IMG/VR virus record: IMGVR_UViG_3300031576_000227
Span: 1-32,341 of that record
Direction: 5' to 3' (one strand)
Length of the DNA: 32,341 nucleotides
Source: a virus
Shown here: in pieces, positions 4,238 to 32,341 of the stretch
Position numbering within the stretch: the first letter of the stretch is position 1
Layout of the letters: every line of letters starts with the position of its first letter
Translations under genes and position numbers: made by a program
Notes under the pieces: generated by a model
Told to the model about the DNA's origin: nothing
What the model saw: the letters and a program-made list of their open reading frames with translations, nothing else
Database searches by the model: none

Positions 4238-5770
4238 ATGGCAGGCGTTTTTTCCAGGCTGGTGAACTGGCTCCGCGGCAGCGATAGCCGCGGCGGACGG
4301 CGCTCCACCTATGACGCCGCCGAAAGCCAGAAGGAACTCAAAGAGCACTGGAGCGCCGCCGACGCCCTCAGCGCCGCCTCGCTGAACACGCCGGAAGTGC
4401 GGGCCACGCTGCGCCAGCGGGCGCGCTTGGAAGCGCGGAACAATCCTACTGCGGCCGGGCTGCTCTCACGGATCGCATTCGACCTGATCGGCACAGGGCC
4501 GCGGTTGCAACTCGGACCGATGGGCGATGCCGAGCCGACCAAGGAACTCACGCTCCGCTACCGCAAGATCGAACGGGCGTTCGCGAAGTGGACGAAGGAA
4601 ATCTGCCTCGCGAAGAAGCTCCGTATTCTCCATGAATCACGGCTGCGCGATGGCGAGTGCTTCGCTGTGCTGAAGACGACTCGCGCGCTCAAAGGCCCTG
4701 TCAAGCTGGACGTGTGCTTGATCGAGGCCGACCAGTGCCAGAGCCCCTACGACCGACTCTTGAACGACGCGAAGTTCGTTGACGGCATCGAGTTCGACGC
4801 GGACGGGAACCGCACGAAGTACCACTTCCTGAAACAACATCCCGGCCACAACTGGCGAACCTCTTTCGAGACCGAGGCAGTTCACGCCGAGGCGGTCATT
4901 CACTGGTATCGTCCGACGCGGCCCGGTCAGGTCCGCGGCGTCTCCGAAATGGCCCCCGTGCTCAACACGCTGGCCCAGCTTCGCCGCTGGGGAATCGCCA
5001 CGCTCACGAACATGGAGACGGCGGCGCATATCACCGGCGTGCTCGAAAGCGACATGCCGTCAGACACGGGAACCGCACCGACCTTCGAGACGATGGACGA
5101 AGTTGATATGCCGCGTGGGGCGCTGCTCACGCTGCCCGGTGGATGGAAGGCGTCGTCATTCCAGGCGAACCAGCCGAATCAGAAGTTCGAGACGGCCAAG
5201 GAAGCCTACGAAGGCGACATCGGTCGTCCCTTCCATGCACCGTTCAACGTCGTGGCCGGCAACTCGTCCAAGTACAACTACTCATCCGGCCGGCTGGACC
5301 ATCTCAACTATCACAGCTCGATTTGGGTCGAACGCGACGACCTGCAAAAGGACGGCGTGGACCGCATCGCTTACGCATGGTTTGAAGAGGCGATGGTAAC
5401 GCGCGAGCTGGGCGATTTGTTTGTCGGCCTGCCGCCGTTTGAGGATTGGAACTGGGACTGGCAATGGGACGGCTTCGAGTCGATTGACCCGGTGAAGGAC
5501 GCCACGGCCGAAGAGCTGGAGCTGGCGAACAATACGAACACGCTCGCGGAGATTTGCGCCGCCAAGGGCCGGCACTGGGAAGACGTGCTGGCGCAGCGCG
5601 CTCGCGAGCAGGCCCGCATGAAGGAACTCGGTCTCGGCATTGAGCCGGTTGCGGCGCGCATCCGGACGGAACCGACTGAGCCCAAAGACTCTCAAGACGA
5701 ATCCCGCAATCGCGAGAAGGACGATGCCGCGGAAGATCGTGAAGACGAAGCCGCTCTCGCGTTTGCATAG
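4238..5770 (+). CDS. Portal protein, lambda gpB-like
   Basis: The 510-residue protein forms the dodecameric ring at the capsid vertex through which DNA enters and to which the tail connects. The N-terminal 'LEARNNPTAAGLLSRIAFDLIGTGPRL' style segment near residues 65-95, the 'VIHWYRPTRPGQVRGVSEMAPVL' region near 210-235 and the overall length fit lambda-family portals. The C-terminal 50 residues are highly charged and low in complexity. It starts immediately after the gpW-position gene, and its last 47 bases overlap the protease-capsid gene in another frame. This overlap is typical of lambda B and C. Confidence 0.92.
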   Translation: MAGVFSRLVNWLRGSDSRGGRRSTYDAAESQKELKEHWSAADALSAASLNTPEVRATLRQRARLEARNNPTAAGLLSRIAFDLIGTGPRLQLGPMGDAEPTKELTLRYRKIERAFAKWTKEICLAKKLRILHESRLRDGECFAVLKTTRALKGPVKLDVCLIEADQCQSPYDRLLNDAKFVDGIEFDADGNRTKYHFLKQHPGHNWRTSFETEAVHAEAVIHWYRPTRPGQVRGVSEMAPVLNTLAQLRRWGIATLTNMETAAHITGVLESDMPSDTGTAPTFETMDEVDMPRGALLTLPGGWKASSFQANQPNQKFETAKEAYEGDIGRPFHAPFNVVAGNSSKYNYSSGRLDHLNYHSSIWVERDDLQKDGVDRIAYAWFEEAMVTRELGDLFVGLPPFEDWNWDWQWDGFESIDPVKDATAEELELANNTNTLAEICAAKGRHWEDVLAQRAREQARMKELGLGIEPVAARIRTEPTEPKDSQDESRNREKDDAAEDREDEAALAFA

Positions 5771-16375: not shown

Positions 16376-17203
16376 ATGGCGACATTCCTCGAACTCTACA
16401 AATCTCCTGAGATCGTCAACAGCACCGACCCGGCGCAGAGAAGCCGGACGATGCACTTCGCGATCTTCGGGACCACGAGCAAGGTCGAAGCCGAGAACCT
16501 GGCGGCCGCAGAAGTCGTGACGTTCTATGATGGCGTTCCGCTCACCACCTATTCGCTTGAATTTGTAGGGGGCGATTACTGGGAGGGGCGGGCCAACTAC
16601 AGTTCGGGGAGTCAGCAGGGGCAGAGCAAGGAGCCCGGCTCCTCCACGCTCGAATTCGACACGGGGGGCGGAACGCAGCGCATCCAAATGGCGCGCGCGA
16701 CCATCTCGAAAAATGTACCGCCGCTCGGAACCGTAGTCGATTTTGAAGGCGCGATCAACGTCAACGAAGATCGGATCGAAGGCGTCGACGTGACGCTCCC
16801 GGTGTTCCACTTCAGCATAACGCACCAGTTGCCTATCGAGCACGAAATCCCACTCGGCTACGTCCGCGGGGTGTTCCTGCTCACTGGCATGATGAACGCT
16901 GCGGTCTTCAAGGGATTCGAGCGAGGCGAGGTACTGTTTCTCGGCGGCTCGGGGCGCAAGCGCTCGGAAGAGGCGGCGGAGCTGAATTTCAAGTTCGCCG
17001 CGTCGCCCAACGTCACCAAACTGAAGATCGGCGAAGGCGCGAACCAAGTCACCGTTCCGGTGAAGCTCGGCTGGGACGTGCTCTGGATCAAGTACATGGA
17101 CGTAGTGCCAACTAATGGTAAATCGATCATCAAACGGCCCACTCAGGCCAACGTCGAGCGCGTCTACGAATTCGGCGACTTTACCGTCCTTGGGAGCATC
17201 TGA
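16376..17203 (+). CDS. Distal tail/baseplate structural protein
   Basis: The 275-residue protein is beta-rich and resembles a family common downstream of tape measures in planctomycete phages. Markers are 'STLEFDTGGGTQRIQMA' near residue 95, 'EGVDVTLPVFHFSITHQLP', 'GMMNAAVFKGFERGEVLFLGGSG', 'FKFAASPNVT' and 'GWDVLWIKYMD'. These suggest a tail-tip hub or distal tail protein that links the tube to the fibre. The stop overlaps the fibre gene in TGATG. The ribosome binding site is weak. It should be the first gene after the moron in the plus direction. Confidence 0.68.
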   Translation: MATFLELYKSPEIVNSTDPAQRSRTMHFAIFGTTSKVEAENLAAAEVVTFYDGVPLTTYSLEFVGGDYWEGRANYSSGSQQGQSKEPGSSTLEFDTGGGTQRIQMARATISKNVPPLGTVVDFEGAINVNEDRIEGVDVTLPVFHFSITHQLPIEHEIPLGYVRGVFLLTGMMNAAVFKGFERGEVLFLGGSGRKRSEEAAELNFKFAASPNVTKLKIGEGANQVTVPVKLGWDVLWIKYMDVVPTNGKSIIKRPTQANVERVYEFGDFTVLGSI

Positions 17204-21779: not shown

Positions 21780-22109
21780 AAAGAAGTCACCTGGGACGAC
21801 GACACCGGAACCTGCGCCGGAGCCGCTTGGATCGACAGCCGCGGTGACCTCTGCATTTCCTGGAACGGCATGTTCACCGGCAGCATTCCTGCTTGTGTCG
21901 TGCCACAACTGACGGTGTTGCTCAATAGGCCAAAACCGGCCGTGGTCGTGAATGTGACGGACTACATTCTTACCGCGCTCCGCTCTGCGCGGCAGACGAT
22001 CATATCGGCCGTGCAAGTTGGCTGCGACCTGCCCGACTTCGATCCGGCAGAACACGTCACCGTGAAGGAAATCGATGCAGCCATTCGCAAAGCTACGGAG
22101 GGCACGTAA
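21744..22109 (+). CDS. Early gene 2, hypothetical
   Basis: The protein of about 121 residues can start at any of four ATGs within the tandem duplication. I chose the second ATG because it has the best spacing to GAGGG and overlaps the previous stop as TGATG. The core 'VTWDDDTGTCAGAAWIDSRGDLCISWNG' is beta-rich and the C-terminal half is helical. It ends in Ala-Thr-Glu-Gly-Thr, the same five residues as the next gene, because the stop/start junction is repeated. No family is recognised. Confidence 0.6.
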   Translation: MASERRMMASERKEVTWDDDTGTCAGAAWIDSRGDLCISWNGMFTGSIPACVVPQLTVLLNRPKPAVVVNVTDYILTALRSARQTIISAVQVGCDLPDFDPAEHVTVKEIDAAIRKATEGT

Positions 22110-25312: not shown

Positions 25313-25327
25313 GACTTGGAGGAACGT

Positions 25328-26077
25328 ATGACAACTTCCGACACCGTGATCTTCTGCGGCCACTACGGACCGGACGGCAAGTGCGGCGCTGAGGCCACGG
25401 TGCGGATCGTCCACGGGAGCAAGCAAGAGGCCCGGTGTGAGAAGCATCGGAAGGCGGCTGAGCAGTGCCGGCCGGGGTGTCGGGTTGTTCCGCTGAACGG
25501 AGATGCCGACGTGACCACCGGCGGCGAAAGCATTTGTCGGCTGATGCACCCGCTCTTCCAAGCGGGCCAAGGCGGTTCAAGTCCGACCTCGCCGCTCGAA
25601 CTGCGCTTCCACACTTGCGCCGTCTCCACAGCCCGGCGGCTGAATCGCCTGTGGCACTCGGTCCTGCCGAAGACGGTCGAATCGAACCTGACGCGGACCC
25701 GACGTAACGCCTACTTCGCCGCCGAGTGCGACGGGACGTTCTACGCAGCGGCAATCTGGACTGACCCGATTGCGTACGGCCTGCCAGCGGACTGGCTGGA
25801 ATTGCGACGGTTCGCGATAGCGCCGGACGCCCCGAAGTACACGGCCTCGCGGATGCTCGGATGGATGGTGCGACAGTTACGCAAAAAGTTCCCCGACGTG
25901 GTAAAGCTCATCAGCTATCAGGACTGCGACCGCCACGCTGGGACTATCTACAAGGCGGCTGGCTGGAAGATGGGCGTGAAGAGCTACGAGCATCGTAACC
26001 GTGGCCTCCGCTCTGGTCGCAAGCGGAATATGCAGCAGACGACGGCAACGAAGCAGCGATGGGAACTGGACCTATGA
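25328..26077 (+). CDS. Mom-like GNAT protein (putative DNA modification)
   Basis: The 249-residue protein joins an N-terminal cysteine cluster (about residues 10-52, with CxHxxxC-like spacing) to a GNAT-type domain at about residues 120-220. The region 'LRRFAIAPDAPKYTASRMLGWMVRQLRKKFPDV' and the later 'ISYQDCDRHAGTIYKAAGW' match the pattern of phage Mu Mom relatives, which add a methylcarbamoyl group to adenine in phage DNA and so block restriction. The C-terminus ends in 'QRWELDL', also seen in such proteins. The ATG with GGAGG five bases upstream was chosen. Its stop overlaps the next start (ATGA). DNA as substrate is inferred from the family. Confidence 0.7.
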   Translation: MTTSDTVIFCGHYGPDGKCGAEATVRIVHGSKQEARCEKHRKAAEQCRPGCRVVPLNGDADVTTGGESICRLMHPLFQAGQGGSSPTSPLELRFHTCAVSTARRLNRLWHSVLPKTVESNLTRTRRNAYFAAECDGTFYAAAIWTDPIAYGLPADWLELRRFAIAPDAPKYTASRMLGWMVRQLRKKFPDVVKLISYQDCDRHAGTIYKAAGWKMGVKSYEHRNRGLRSGRKRNMQQTTATKQRWELDL

Positions 26078-26287: not shown

Positions 26288-26982
26288 CCACCGAAACCGA
26301 AATCCTCGATCAAGTCCGCAAGTTCGTGGCCTTGACGCCGCACCGGCTCGACATGGAGCACTGGCACGGCAACGCGCCGTGCAGCACGGCACATTGCCTG
26401 GCCGGCTGGGCTCAAGAGTTGTCCGGCGAGAAAGGTGATCCGTACGAGATCGGGCGGCGCCTCCTGCCGAAGACAGCCGCAATGCCGGGATTCTTCTGCT
26501 CGGCGAAGGTCGCTCGCGCGTGGCTCGATACGCGCGGATACGCAGACGACACGAAAGAAAGCGCCTTCCGCGATGCACTGATCGGTCTGGGCTGGAAGCA
26601 CGTTTCGTCGGGGACGCATGAGACCATCAGCGGCGACTGGCTCTACGGCAACGCGGTACTGACCACGATGGAAGCGATACTCTTCGGTGATGACAGCGAA
26701 GCGACTGACGGAGACCGCGAAATGAGCAGCATCCGCAAACAGCCCCGCGCCTCCTTCCGCCATGACAACGTGCGGATCGACCGGACTTACCGTGGCTCGT
26801 TCGCCGGCCGGACGTGGACGAGGTGCAACGAGACGACGCCAGACATCGAAGCCCGCATCGCCCAATTGACTGACCTAGCAGAGCGGGGGCTGCCGCTGGT
26901 TTATCACACGGAGGGGAACCATGCTCGTACTCAGTCGGCATACAGGACAACGGCTTTTCATCGGCGACAAGGTGATTGTTGA
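26284..26982 (+). CDS. Conserved hypothetical phage protein (232 aa)
   Basis: The GTG start lies in a GTGA overlap and has GGAGG eight bases upstream. The frame is open further upstream only because it shares the frame of the split zinc-ribbon gene. Residues about 1-140 contain 'LDMEHWHGNAPCSTAHCLAGWAQELSGE', a His/Cys-containing helix motif I recall from uncharacterised phage and bacterial proteins. Residues 150-232 are basic and less conserved in appearance. The last 62 bases overlap csrA, so the true C-terminus may be shorter. No function can be assigned. Confidence 0.55.
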   Translation: MTTETEILDQVRKFVALTPHRLDMEHWHGNAPCSTAHCLAGWAQELSGEKGDPYEIGRRLLPKTAAMPGFFCSAKVARAWLDTRGYADDTKESAFRDALIGLGWKHVSSGTHETISGDWLYGNAVLTTMEAILFGDDSEATDGDREMSSIRKQPRASFRHDNVRIDRTYRGSFAGRTWTRCNETTPDIEARIAQLTDLAERGLPLVYHTEGNHARTQSAYRTTAFHRRQGDC

Positions 26983-27124
26983 AGTGGTGGGCATCAACAA
27001 GGGCCGCGTGCAGCTTGGCATCTCTGCGCCGCGAGAACTGCCGGTGCATCGCGAGGAAATCAAGAAGGCAATCGATGCGGCCAGGGCCGCGAAGGACATG
27101 CCCGCTGCGCCCTGCGTTAGCTGA
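26921..27124 (+). CDS. csrA: Phage-encoded CsrA/RsmA translational regulator
   Basis: The 67-residue protein has the full CsrA pattern: 'MLVLSRHTGQRLFIGD' at the start, 'GRVQLGISAP' in the middle and 'VHREEI' with Arg44. Leu4, Arg6, Val42 and Arg44, which contact GGA motifs in RNA, are present. Position 7 is His instead of the usual basic residue. CsrA dimers bind ANGGA sequences in leaders and usually block translation. The gene has its own strong site ACGGAGGGGAACC, which contains ACGGA, so autorepression is plausible. Its stop overlaps an ATG of the next gene. It may retune host metabolism or phage early genes. Confidence 0.93.
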   Translation: MLVLSRHTGQRLFIGDKVIVEVVGINKGRVQLGISAPRELPVHREEIKKAIDAARAAKDMPAAPCVS

Positions 27125-27936
27125 TGGCGACGGCTGACACAGGCCAGCGGGCTGCTTTTCACGGAGAGCACGATGCGTTTTTTCTCGGCACGCACCAGGT
27201 TGAATGGCTCGGACGTACAGACGTGCCGCTGTTCGTCTCCGCGCGTCGGCTCCGTCTCCGAAAGCGACTGCCGACAGCTCGCTGGCCGTGGGCTCTCGAC
27301 TCCGGTTTCTCGGAACTCTCGCTCTTCGGCCGCTGGGAGACGAGCCCGCAACAGTACGCCGACGAAACCCGGCGCTGGCGTGACCGGATCGGCGGAATGC
27401 AGTGGGCAGCTCCGCAAGATTGGATGTGCGAGCCGTTCATCGTCGCCAAAACAGGAAAGTCCGTCCGTGAACACCAGCAGCGAACCATCGCCAGCTACCA
27501 CGATCTGCGCCGCCTGGCCGACGGTGTTCAGTGGATTCCTGTCCTGCAAGGATGGGGTTTCGAGGACTACTACGATCATGCGGCACAATGGCTGGCGAGC
27601 GGAGTACCGCTCACCGATGGCCGGGTGGTGGGACTGGGCTCAGTCTGCCGACGTCAATCTACAGGACTGGCCGCTGACATCGGTCGATCCCTGTTTGATC
27701 GTGGAATACGGCTGCACGCCTTTGGGTTCAAGTTCGGCGGACTGGTCGCATGCGCGCCTTGGCTGGCGAGCGCGGACAGTCTCGCCTGGAGCTACAACGC
27801 CAGACGCAATGTACCGATGGCTGGGTGTTCACATGGCTCTTGTGCGAACTGCCTTCGTTGGGCTCTGCGCTGGCGTGAGCGGCTGCTGAATGTGCTGAGC
27901 GTGCACCGGGAATACGTTCAGCCGGTTTTGCTCTGA
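27124..27936 (+). CDS. DpdA-like deazapurine DNA modification protein (TGT fold)
   Basis: The frame encodes a protein resembling DpdA, the tRNA-guanine transglycosylase-like enzyme that inserts 7-deazaguanine into DNA. Visible TGT-like elements are 'ALDSGF' near residue 57, 'APQDWMCEPF', 'IPVLQG', 'VGLGSVCRR', 'LHAFGFK' and 'SADSLAWS', whose Asp may be the nucleophile. A 'CSHGSCANC' cluster may bind zinc. The in-frame ATG overlaps the csrA stop but has no ribosome binding site. Family members start at the equivalent of 'FFLGTH'. A good start (GGAGAG, then ATG at 27173) sits one frame away and would join this frame by -1 slippage at 27178. The usual second Gly of DSGGF is absent. Confidence 0.72.
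   Translation: MATADTGQRAAFHGEHDAFFLGTHQVEWLGRTDVPLFVSARRLRLRKRLPTARWPWALDSGFSELSLFGRWETSPQQYADETRRWRDRIGGMQWAAPQDWMCEPFIVAKTGKSVREHQQRTIASYHDLRRLADGVQWIPVLQGWGFEDYYDHAAQWLASGVPLTDGRVVGLGSVCRRQSTGLAADIGRSLFDRGIRLHAFGFKFGGLVACAPWLASADSLAWSYNARRNVPMAGCSHGSCANCLRWALRWRERLLNVLSVHREYVQPVLL
27178..27184 (+). promoter_or_regulatory. Slippery heptamer T TTT TTC at the DpdA-like start
   Basis: From the ATG at 27173 the codons are ATG CGT TTT TTC. The last seven bases form X XXY YYZ in the correct phase. A -1 slip gives Met-Arg-Phe-Phe-Leu-Gly-Thr-His, the N-terminus expected for the family. One extra T in the run would have the same effect. Confidence 0.55.
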
Positions 27937-27949
27937 AGCGGAGAGCACG

Positions 27950-28174
27950 ATGCTCGCATTCGGATTCGTGGGCACGATGGACACGCCGAAGAAAATCCAT
28001 GCAGCCGCTGGCACTGAGAGAAAGTGCAAAGGACGCGAGAAGAACTGTGCGGCGTGCGGACAGATGATTCGTGTCGGCGAAGTGTACGTGATCGGTGAAG
28101 GCCATTTGCCGATGCACTACGGCGCACGGTTTGTATCGCGGCCGGGACCGAATTGTCCGCCTGAAAATCCGTGA
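27950..28174 (+). CDS. Small zinc-binding protein (74 aa)
   Basis: The 74-residue protein follows a GCGGAGAGCACG leader almost identical to that before the DpdA-like start at 27173. It carries Cys in 'KCKGREKNCAACGQM', followed by 'VYVIGEGHLPMHYG' and a last Cys. A zinc knuckle with Cys and His ligands is plausible. There is no signal peptide, although the N-terminus is mildly hydrophobic. The family is unknown to me. Confidence 0.55.
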   Translation: MLAFGFVGTMDTPKKIHAAAGTERKCKGREKNCAACGQMIRVGEVYVIGEGHLPMHYGARFVSRPGPNCPPENP

Positions 28175-29355: not shown

Positions 29356-30447
29356 ATGAGTAACTGGTTTTCGGTGGACAAGGCTGGGCTGGCCGCGGTG
29401 CTTGAACGACGCGGCAAAGCGTTCGCCCTGTTTGAATTGGTGCAGAACGCTTGGGACTCTGGGGCCGAGCGTGTCAGTGTGACGCTCACGCCGATTCCCG
29501 GCCAAGCGTATGCACAGCTTGAAATCGATGACAATGGGGAAGGCTTCGCGGACCTGAGTCACGCTCACACGATGTTCGCGAGGTCCACGCGGGCCGACGA
29601 TGCCGAGAAGCGTGGCCGGTTCAACCTGGGGGAGAAGCTGGTCCTGAGCGTCTGCCGTTGGGCTGCAATCGAAACCACAAGCGGTACGCTGGAATTCTGC
29701 AATACCGGCAATCTCCGTCGCGGCTCGGACAAGAGGGAATCGGGAACGCGGTTCGTCGCCGAGATCAAGATGACGCGCGACGAATACGGTGAATGCTGCG
29801 AGGCCATGCGCCGTCTCATCCCGCCAGTCGCCACGACCTTCAACGGCGCTGAGATCGAACGGCCGGATTCCATCGCCCGCTTTGATACCAAACTGCCGAC
29901 GGAGATTGCCGACGCCGACGGGCTCCTGCGCCGCACAACGCGGCTGGGCACAGTTGAAGTCTACGAAGGCAACGGCGAACTCCTGGAACTCGGCATCCCG
30001 GTGTGCGAGACGACGAACGGCTACCGCGTCAACGTGCTCCAGAAGGTTCCTCTGAACATGGAGCGGGACAACGTGACGCCGGCCTTCCTGCGAACGATCC
30101 AGGCCGCACTCCTGAACAATGTGCATGACCGGCTCTCGCCCGAAGAGGCGTCAATGCCGTGGGCTCAAGAGGCAGCCGGTGATGCCAGAGCCACGCCCGC
30201 TGCCGTTAAGGCGGTCATCAAGGCCAGGTTCGGCGAACGAGCGGTAGTCGCCACGCCGAACGATCCGATGGCGAATGCAGCGGCGGAAGCGGCCGGGTTC
30301 ACGGTGATTCCTGGCGGCTCGCTGAGCGCCGACGCCTGGGCGAATATCCGCAAGCATAACCTCTTGCTACCAGCGTCGCAGGTGTTCCCGACGCCGAAGC
30401 CTGAGGCGCTGGCGAACGCAACGCGCTGTCCGATGTGTGGGCGATGA
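29356..30447 (+). CDS. GHKL-type ATPase of phage origin
   Basis: The 363-residue protein has an N-terminal GHKL ATP-binding fold as in Hsp90, MutL and MORC proteins. The N box 'FELVQNAWDSGA' contains Glu27 and Asn31, 'IDDNGEGF' contains Asp59, and 'GRFNLGEKLVLSV' serves as the Gly-rich lid. Residues about 130-240 form a second domain of the ribosomal S5-like type found behind such folds. The C-terminus ends in 'CPMCGR', half of a zinc site. GGGAGG precedes the ATG. It is the first gene behind the strongest promoter and two operators, so expression is tightly controlled. Phage homologues have no established role. Confidence 0.78.
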   Translation: MSNWFSVDKAGLAAVLERRGKAFALFELVQNAWDSGAERVSVTLTPIPGQAYAQLEIDDNGEGFADLSHAHTMFARSTRADDAEKRGRFNLGEKLVLSVCRWAAIETTSGTLEFCNTGNLRRGSDKRESGTRFVAEIKMTRDEYGECCEAMRRLIPPVATTFNGAEIERPDSIARFDTKLPTEIADADGLLRRTTRLGTVEVYEGNGELLELGIPVCETTNGYRVNVLQKVPLNMERDNVTPAFLRTIQAALLNNVHDRLSPEEASMPWAQEAAGDARATPAAVKAVIKARFGERAVVATPNDPMANAAAEAAGFTVIPGGSLSADAWANIRKHNLLLPASQVFPTPKPEALANATRCPMCGR

Positions 30448-31653: not shown

Positions 31654-32341
31654 ATGCCAACTGCAACGAACGTACTCGATCTGCTAATCCCACTCGCCGA
31701 CGCCCACGCGAAGGCCGACGAGTACATTACCGGGACCTACTGGGACACGGCCAGGCGCAAGGGTTGCAGCGTCGGCTGCACCATCGCTGACGCGAAGAAG
31801 CTCAAGCTCGTAAACGGCATGGATGACGACGACCACGCCGGCCTTGCCGCTCTGTTTGGCGTCCCCGAAATGCTCTGCTACTTGCAGGACCACATTTACG
31901 AGGGCCTGCCCAACGACAAGCGGGCAGGGTGGACGCCGCGTTTTTTGCGGGCGCTCAAGTCGGCACGCGATTGCTCTAACGCGCCAGCCAGGATCATGTC
32001 GCGGCTCTGCAACAAGCTCGCGAACGACGCCATACGCGACGATGTTCGCGTGGTTGCGCAGGCGACCGCCAAGCTATGGCTGCGACGAGCCAATGGCGAC
32101 GAACCGAACGAAGCGGAATGGGACGCGGCGTGGCAGCAAGCCGACGCGGCGCGGCAGAAAGCCGACGCGGCGTGGCAGCAAGCCTACGCGGCGCAGCAGC
32201 AAGCCGAGGCGGTGCGGCAGCAAGCCTACGCGGCGCGGCAGCAAGCCGACGCGGCGCGGCAGCAAGCCTACGCGGCGCAGCAGCAAGCCGAGGCGGTGCG
32301 GCAGCAAGCCGACGCGGCGCGGCAGCAAGCCGACGCGGCGC
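31654..32341 (+). CDS. Conserved protein with alanine-rich heptad repeats (partial at window end)
   Basis: The gene has AGGAGG seven bases before the ATG and runs off the window, leaving 229 residues. Residues 1-150 match a widespread uncharacterised family: 'KGCSVGCTIADAK', 'DHAGLAALFGVPEMLCYLQDHIYEGLPND', 'GWTPRFLRALKSARD'. From residue 157 it consists of seven-residue repeats of the type DAARQQA. These would form a long helix. Relatives in phages and cyanobacteria also end in Ala-rich repeats. Function is unknown, and a structural or immunity-like role would be a guess. Repeat number may vary. Confidence 0.78.
   Translation, partial: MPTATNVLDLLIPLADAHAKADEYITGTYWDTARRKGCSVGCTIADAKKLKLVNGMDDDDHAGLAALFGVPEMLCYLQDHIYEGLPNDKRAGWTPRFLRALKSARDCSNAPARIMSRLCNKLANDAIRDDVRVVAQATAKLWLRRANGDEPNEAEWDAAWQQADAARQKADAAWQQAYAAQQQAEAVRQQAYAARQQADAARQQAYAAQQQAEAVRQQADAARQQADAA
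32122..32341 (+). repeat. 21-bp coding tandem repeat, at least 10 copies
   Basis: Units encode (D/Y/E)-A-(A/V)-(R/W/Q)-Q-(Q/K)-A. About 10.5 copies are present up to the window end. Copies 4-7 and 8-11 are related as an 84-bp higher-order repeat, with the order Tyr, Glu, Tyr, Asp versus Tyr, Glu, Asp, Asp at the first position. The true copy number lies outside the window. Confidence 0.95.

Follow-up and report, generated by a model that had tools for sequence, protein, structure and literature searches.

Termination-reinitiation at overlapping stop and start codons is established both with and without a Shine-Dalgarno sequence, and removal of the Shine-Dalgarno often reduces the output of reinitiation (PMC6728339). 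In one study, slippery heptamers that lacked stimulators exceeded the background rate of frameshifting, which was near 0.05%, by at most about 10-fold (PMC4066793). Phages that encode dpdA alone may have unmodified DNA (PMC6884629). The dpdA gene described here lies in a virus record of 32,341 bases, the whole of which was analysed and is called the window below, and which contains the phage head genes for a terminase, a portal, and a peptidase-capsid protein. The features around the start of dpdA are listed in Table 1.

Table 1. Features at and around the start of dpdA in the window.
Feature	Position	Strand	Remarks
csrA ribosome binding site, CACGGAGGGG	26907	+	GGAG ahead of ATG 26921
csrA-like gene, 67 aa	26921..27124	+	PF02599, E 2e-19; phrog_9500
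Strong RNA hairpin, terminator- or attenuator-like	27100..27152	+	spans the csrA stop; followed by TGCTTTT
TGATG overlap (csrA TGA 27122-27124, dpdA ATG 27124-27126)	27122..27126	+	only in-frame dpdA start; no Shine-Dalgarno
dpdA as recorded, 270 aa	27124..27936	+	16 extra residues, then core beginning at residue 17
Ribosome binding block CACGGAGAGCACG and ATG 27173	27160..27175	+	probable native dpdA start, one base off frame
Off-frame ORF from ATG 27173, 238 codons	27173..27889	+	no Pfam family; unrelated to DpdA
T TTT TTC heptamer (Phe-Phe codons)	27178..27184	+	phase correct for a -1 slip relative to ATG 27173
Next gene, 74 aa, Cys-rich, ATG 27950	27937..28172	+	same ribosome binding block as dpdA upstream

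As judged from its sequence, the gene product is an ordinary DpdA of the 7-deazaguanine DNA transglycosylase family and is predicted to insert a 7-deazaguanine base into DNA. It matches the full-length PF23859 profile over residues 17-257 (E 3e-79, 266 bits against a curated cut-off of 27) as well as phrog_1279, and its core motifs are intact (D59, QDWMCEP, G-x-G-S-[VI]-C-R-R, and D218-S219). A search of the PDB by sequence returned no relative. The best PDB fold matches of the predicted structure (built on 28 sequences; mean pLDDT 89) were tRNA-guanine transglycosylases, with an E value of 1e-5 and a modest TM of about 0.5. In this prediction the first strand spans residues 18-23 and residues 1-16 have a pLDDT below 50 and are predicted to be disordered, so that the 16-residue tail lies outside the DpdA fold. 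A short distance upstream of dpdA, positions 25316-26077 encode a Mom-like DNA modification protein (PF25680, E 7e-13; phrog_1384), a neighbor found at none of the other fetched dpdA loci; csrA and these two different DNA-modification genes form one cluster in the window. An Rfam search gave no match, and tandem repeats with a unit of about 21 bases (GGCAGCAAGCCGACGCGGCGC) occupy positions 32122-32341 and reach the end of the record. An exact pattern search of viral contigs found neither another copy of the virus nor a near relative, and the same was true of flanking-gene and portal searches and of megablast of phages and plasmids.

A preliminary description of this DNA had claimed that the only start codon of dpdA backed by a ribosome binding site opens the wrong frame and that a slippery heptamer just behind it would, by a -1 slip, produce the N-terminus of the family. 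These statements are borne out. GGAG at 27163-27166 precedes ATG 27173, from which the codons read ATG CGT TTT TTC, and a -1 slip at the heptamer gives MRFFLGTH; in the family the N-terminus reads M-[RK]-F-[FY]-L-G-T-H, from which the record departs by one base. Upstream of the FFLGTH core, the DpdA frame contains neither ATG nor GTG nor TTG until ATG 27124, which lies 18 codons ahead of Phe19 and is therefore the closest start in frame. From that codon the whole DpdA frame is open, and a frameshift is therefore not required to make the protein. The earlier proposal that a seventh T would restore the frame stands insofar as a one-base change does toggle it; the base missing before the two Phe codons need not be a T, since the loss of any base between ATG 27173 and these codons would give the same picture.

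To place this arrangement in its family, we compared 117 distinct homologous dpdA loci, none above approximately 59% identity. An in-frame start lies within five codons of the core in 103 of the 117, most commonly at position -2 (51 of the 103, with Arg or Lys as codon 2 in 33 of those 51), and ATG 27173 sits at this -2 position, out of register by a single base. Among the loci compared, the window alone has no near in-frame start and, in addition, an off-frame ATG with a Shine-Dalgarno. The combination of off-frame start and heptamer was present in none of the 117 homologues, a test of conservation limited by the identity of at most about 59%, and an exact scan for the heptamer lying off frame ahead of the family motif gave six matches, no DpdA among them. 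One relative (L077) carries ATGAGGTTTTTTCTCGG in frame, with TTTTTT at the same place, which indicates that the six-T run arises simply from a Phe-Phe N-terminus. Breaks in the dpdA frame occur in two other independent fetched loci (L010/L131, where the break adjoins a G10 run, and L060), and dpdA records with frame breaks are not rare. In L010, the break lies around position 2460 beside the ten-G run, with an apparent Planctomycete-type protein end upstream. A further dpdA homologue, in a Planctomycetota MAG (L052, around position 5007), has no ATG, GTG, or TTG in the 49 open codons before its core, and so is a second case of an abnormally reading start.

The ribosome binding block ahead of ATG 27173 belongs to a set of similar blocks in this genome. 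With a GGAG core and up to two mismatches, CACGGAGRGCACG occurs five times on the + strand (at 22094, 22292, 22505, 27160, and 27937) compared to about once in shuffles, and every copy has an ATG within 3 nt (22110, 22308, 22519, 27173, and 27950, respectively). The four copies other than that of dpdA open ORFs of 65, 72, 407, and 74 codons, and the 15-mer CGGAGAGCACGATGC is identical at 27162, before dpdA, and at 27939, before the next gene. Counted on both strands and without the GGAG requirement, the block is less striking (7 copies versus 3.6 expected); the weight therefore rests on the position of all five + strand copies before an ATG. Possibly the recurrent block is a regulatory element, beyond a plain ribosome binding site. 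ACGGA is present in the ribosome binding sites of both csrA (26907-26921) and dpdA (27160-27173). Known CsrA/RsmA binding sites have this motif at their core, although ANGGA at a Shine-Dalgarno is also frequent by chance; the phage CsrA could act as a repressor of both csrA and dpdA.

The hairpin that spans the csrA stop has a folding energy of about -37 kcal/mol and is one of the two strongest found when the + strand of the window was scanned at 60 nt, a longer stretch around it has a z score of -3.8, and ATG 27124 falls within its loop. A consensus terminator scan did not flag it. The sole stronger + strand hairpin comes directly after the stop codon of a gene that ends at 30447, with CCTTTTG behind it; this gene, near the right end of the window (29356-30447), encodes a HATPase_c domain protein (PF02518, E 3e-9). 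Both hairpins look like transcript ends, and the stretch from 27125 to 27160 accordingly seems intergenic rather than coding. Enrichment of Shine-Dalgarno sequences in hairpins was unconvincing (5 of 18 GGAG-ATG sites versus 22 of the 167 GGAG sites in the whole window).

Taken together, the recurrent ribosome binding block, the start position in homologues, and the intergenic look of the hairpin indicate that ATG 27173 is probably the native start, and because this codon stands one base off the family start, the simplest reading is that one base is missing. It is likely, in our judgment, that dpdA starts natively at 27173 and that a base before the core has been lost, in the record or in the virus; the off-frame start, the family of blocks, the start position in homologues, the open frame from 27124, and the predicted disorder of the tail are observed, while which start is in use and whether the deletion is real are inferred. 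The native protein would have begun as in the relatives, with Met, usually Arg or Lys, and then Phe-Phe-Leu-Gly-Thr-His, and the record would be one base short between ATG 27173 and the FFLGTH core. An error of the assembled record is a tentative explanation of the missing base, short of probable, and compatible with the option of a sequence error that was listed in the preliminary description; a real and recent deletion is also possible, and only slightly less likely. If the deletion is real, ribosomes finishing csrA would restart at the overlapping ATG 27124 and produce an intact enzyme, to which the restart would add the 16-residue tail that is predicted to be disordered. The main competing account of the start holds that dpdA has always been translated from ATG 27124 by termination-reinitiation off csrA, with a natural tail, and that the block and ATG 27173 are fortuitous or serve reinitiation only. 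The TGATG overlap is exact, in the right frame, and opens the full DpdA frame, as would suit a genuine start; reinitiation at overlaps without a Shine-Dalgarno is documented (PMC6728339), overlapping starts occur elsewhere in this genome (e.g., ATG 17203), and 7 of the 117 homologues start 11-29 codons upstream of the core, that is, with tails of at least 11 codons. However, the overlap at 17203 has a Shine-Dalgarno while that at 27124 does not, the strong hairpin, whose loop holds ATG 27124, has the look of an intergenic element, and the presence of a complete ribosome binding block and an ATG a single base away from the family start would have to be a coincidence. Nor is the open upstream frame strongly discriminating, since simulated loss of one base after the ATG left some in-frame upstream start at 11 of 21 gene starts in the window; the nearest of these was an ATG at 1 of the 21. 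We therefore regard a native start at 27124 as unlikely, though the earlier view of ATG 27173 as the real start signal, which is probably right, had given this upstream codon too little weight.

Explanations that invoke the heptamer or its T tract fare considerably worse. In the headline claim of the preliminary description, programmed -1 frameshifting on the U UUU UUC of codons 2-4 would make DpdA from ATG 27173. The heptamer has the correct phase, measurements in E. coli place U_UUU_UUC among the more shift-prone heptamers, and GGAG lies inside the 6-17 nt spacing range reported to stimulate shifting (PMC4066793). Against this, the arrangement of the shift site recurs in no homologue, neither in the 117 loci nor in the heptamer scan, its T6 consists of plain Phe-Phe codons, and the DpdA frame can be read from 27124 regardless. 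The RNA 3' of the heptamer folds no better than shuffles in three downstream stretches (z +0.6 to +1.4), and given at most about 10 times the ~0.05% background for unstimulated heptamers, nearly all product from 27173 would be that of the 238-codon off-frame ORF. We consider such frameshifting very unlikely. A more elaborate version, in which a genuine -1 shift at codons 2-4 keeps the amount of a DNA-modifying enzyme low and a single GGAG serves both initiation and stimulation of the shift while being overlapped by an ANGGA-type motif of the adjacent phage CsrA, is likewise very unlikely. Equally improbable is a phase-variable T tract, or slippage of RNA polymerase on it, that would switch DpdA on and off. 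A one-base change in the tract would switch the reading frame that ATG 27173 opens, but the tract has only six T, four other T6 runs occur in the window, and efficient slippage of bacterial RNA polymerase is documented on about nine A or T (PMC5009743); the six-T run thus does not favor these two mechanisms, which had been listed earlier as options. Moreover, ATG 27124 is in frame with the six-T form, and the "off" state would not truly be off.

The probable loss of one base behind a native start at 27173 has its main consequence in annotation. The gene in the record is best taken for a DpdA whose start carries a suspected one-base deletion, and gene callers will assign to it a 16-residue tail that possibly does not exist. 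Were frameshifting true, a DNA hypermodification enzyme would be under an unusual form of control close to its start; a programmed frameshift at the start of dpdA is unlikely, and we see no good case for it.

The locus can be compared with three known systems. Like other phage DpdA proteins (PF23859, phrog_1279), that of the window has a full-length family match, conserved motifs, and a fold like that of tRNA-guanine transglycosylases; it differs in a start codon displaced from the frame by one base, in the 16-residue N-terminal tail it carries as recorded, and in adjoining csrA, which is near dpdA in none of the fetched homologue loci. The phased heptamer with an upstream GGAG resembles bacterial X_XXY_YYZ -1 frameshifting, as in dnaX and the IS3 family. 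In contrast to those sites, the heptamer lies at codons 2-4, it lacks downstream structure and conservation, and the shift is not needed. Finally, the overlap of the csrA stop with the dpdA start is like that of translationally coupled TGATG/ATGA gene pairs (PMC6728339), and translation of dpdA from ATG 27124 would be expected to depend on that of csrA; the csrA-dpdA pair differs in that its overlapping start is without a Shine-Dalgarno.
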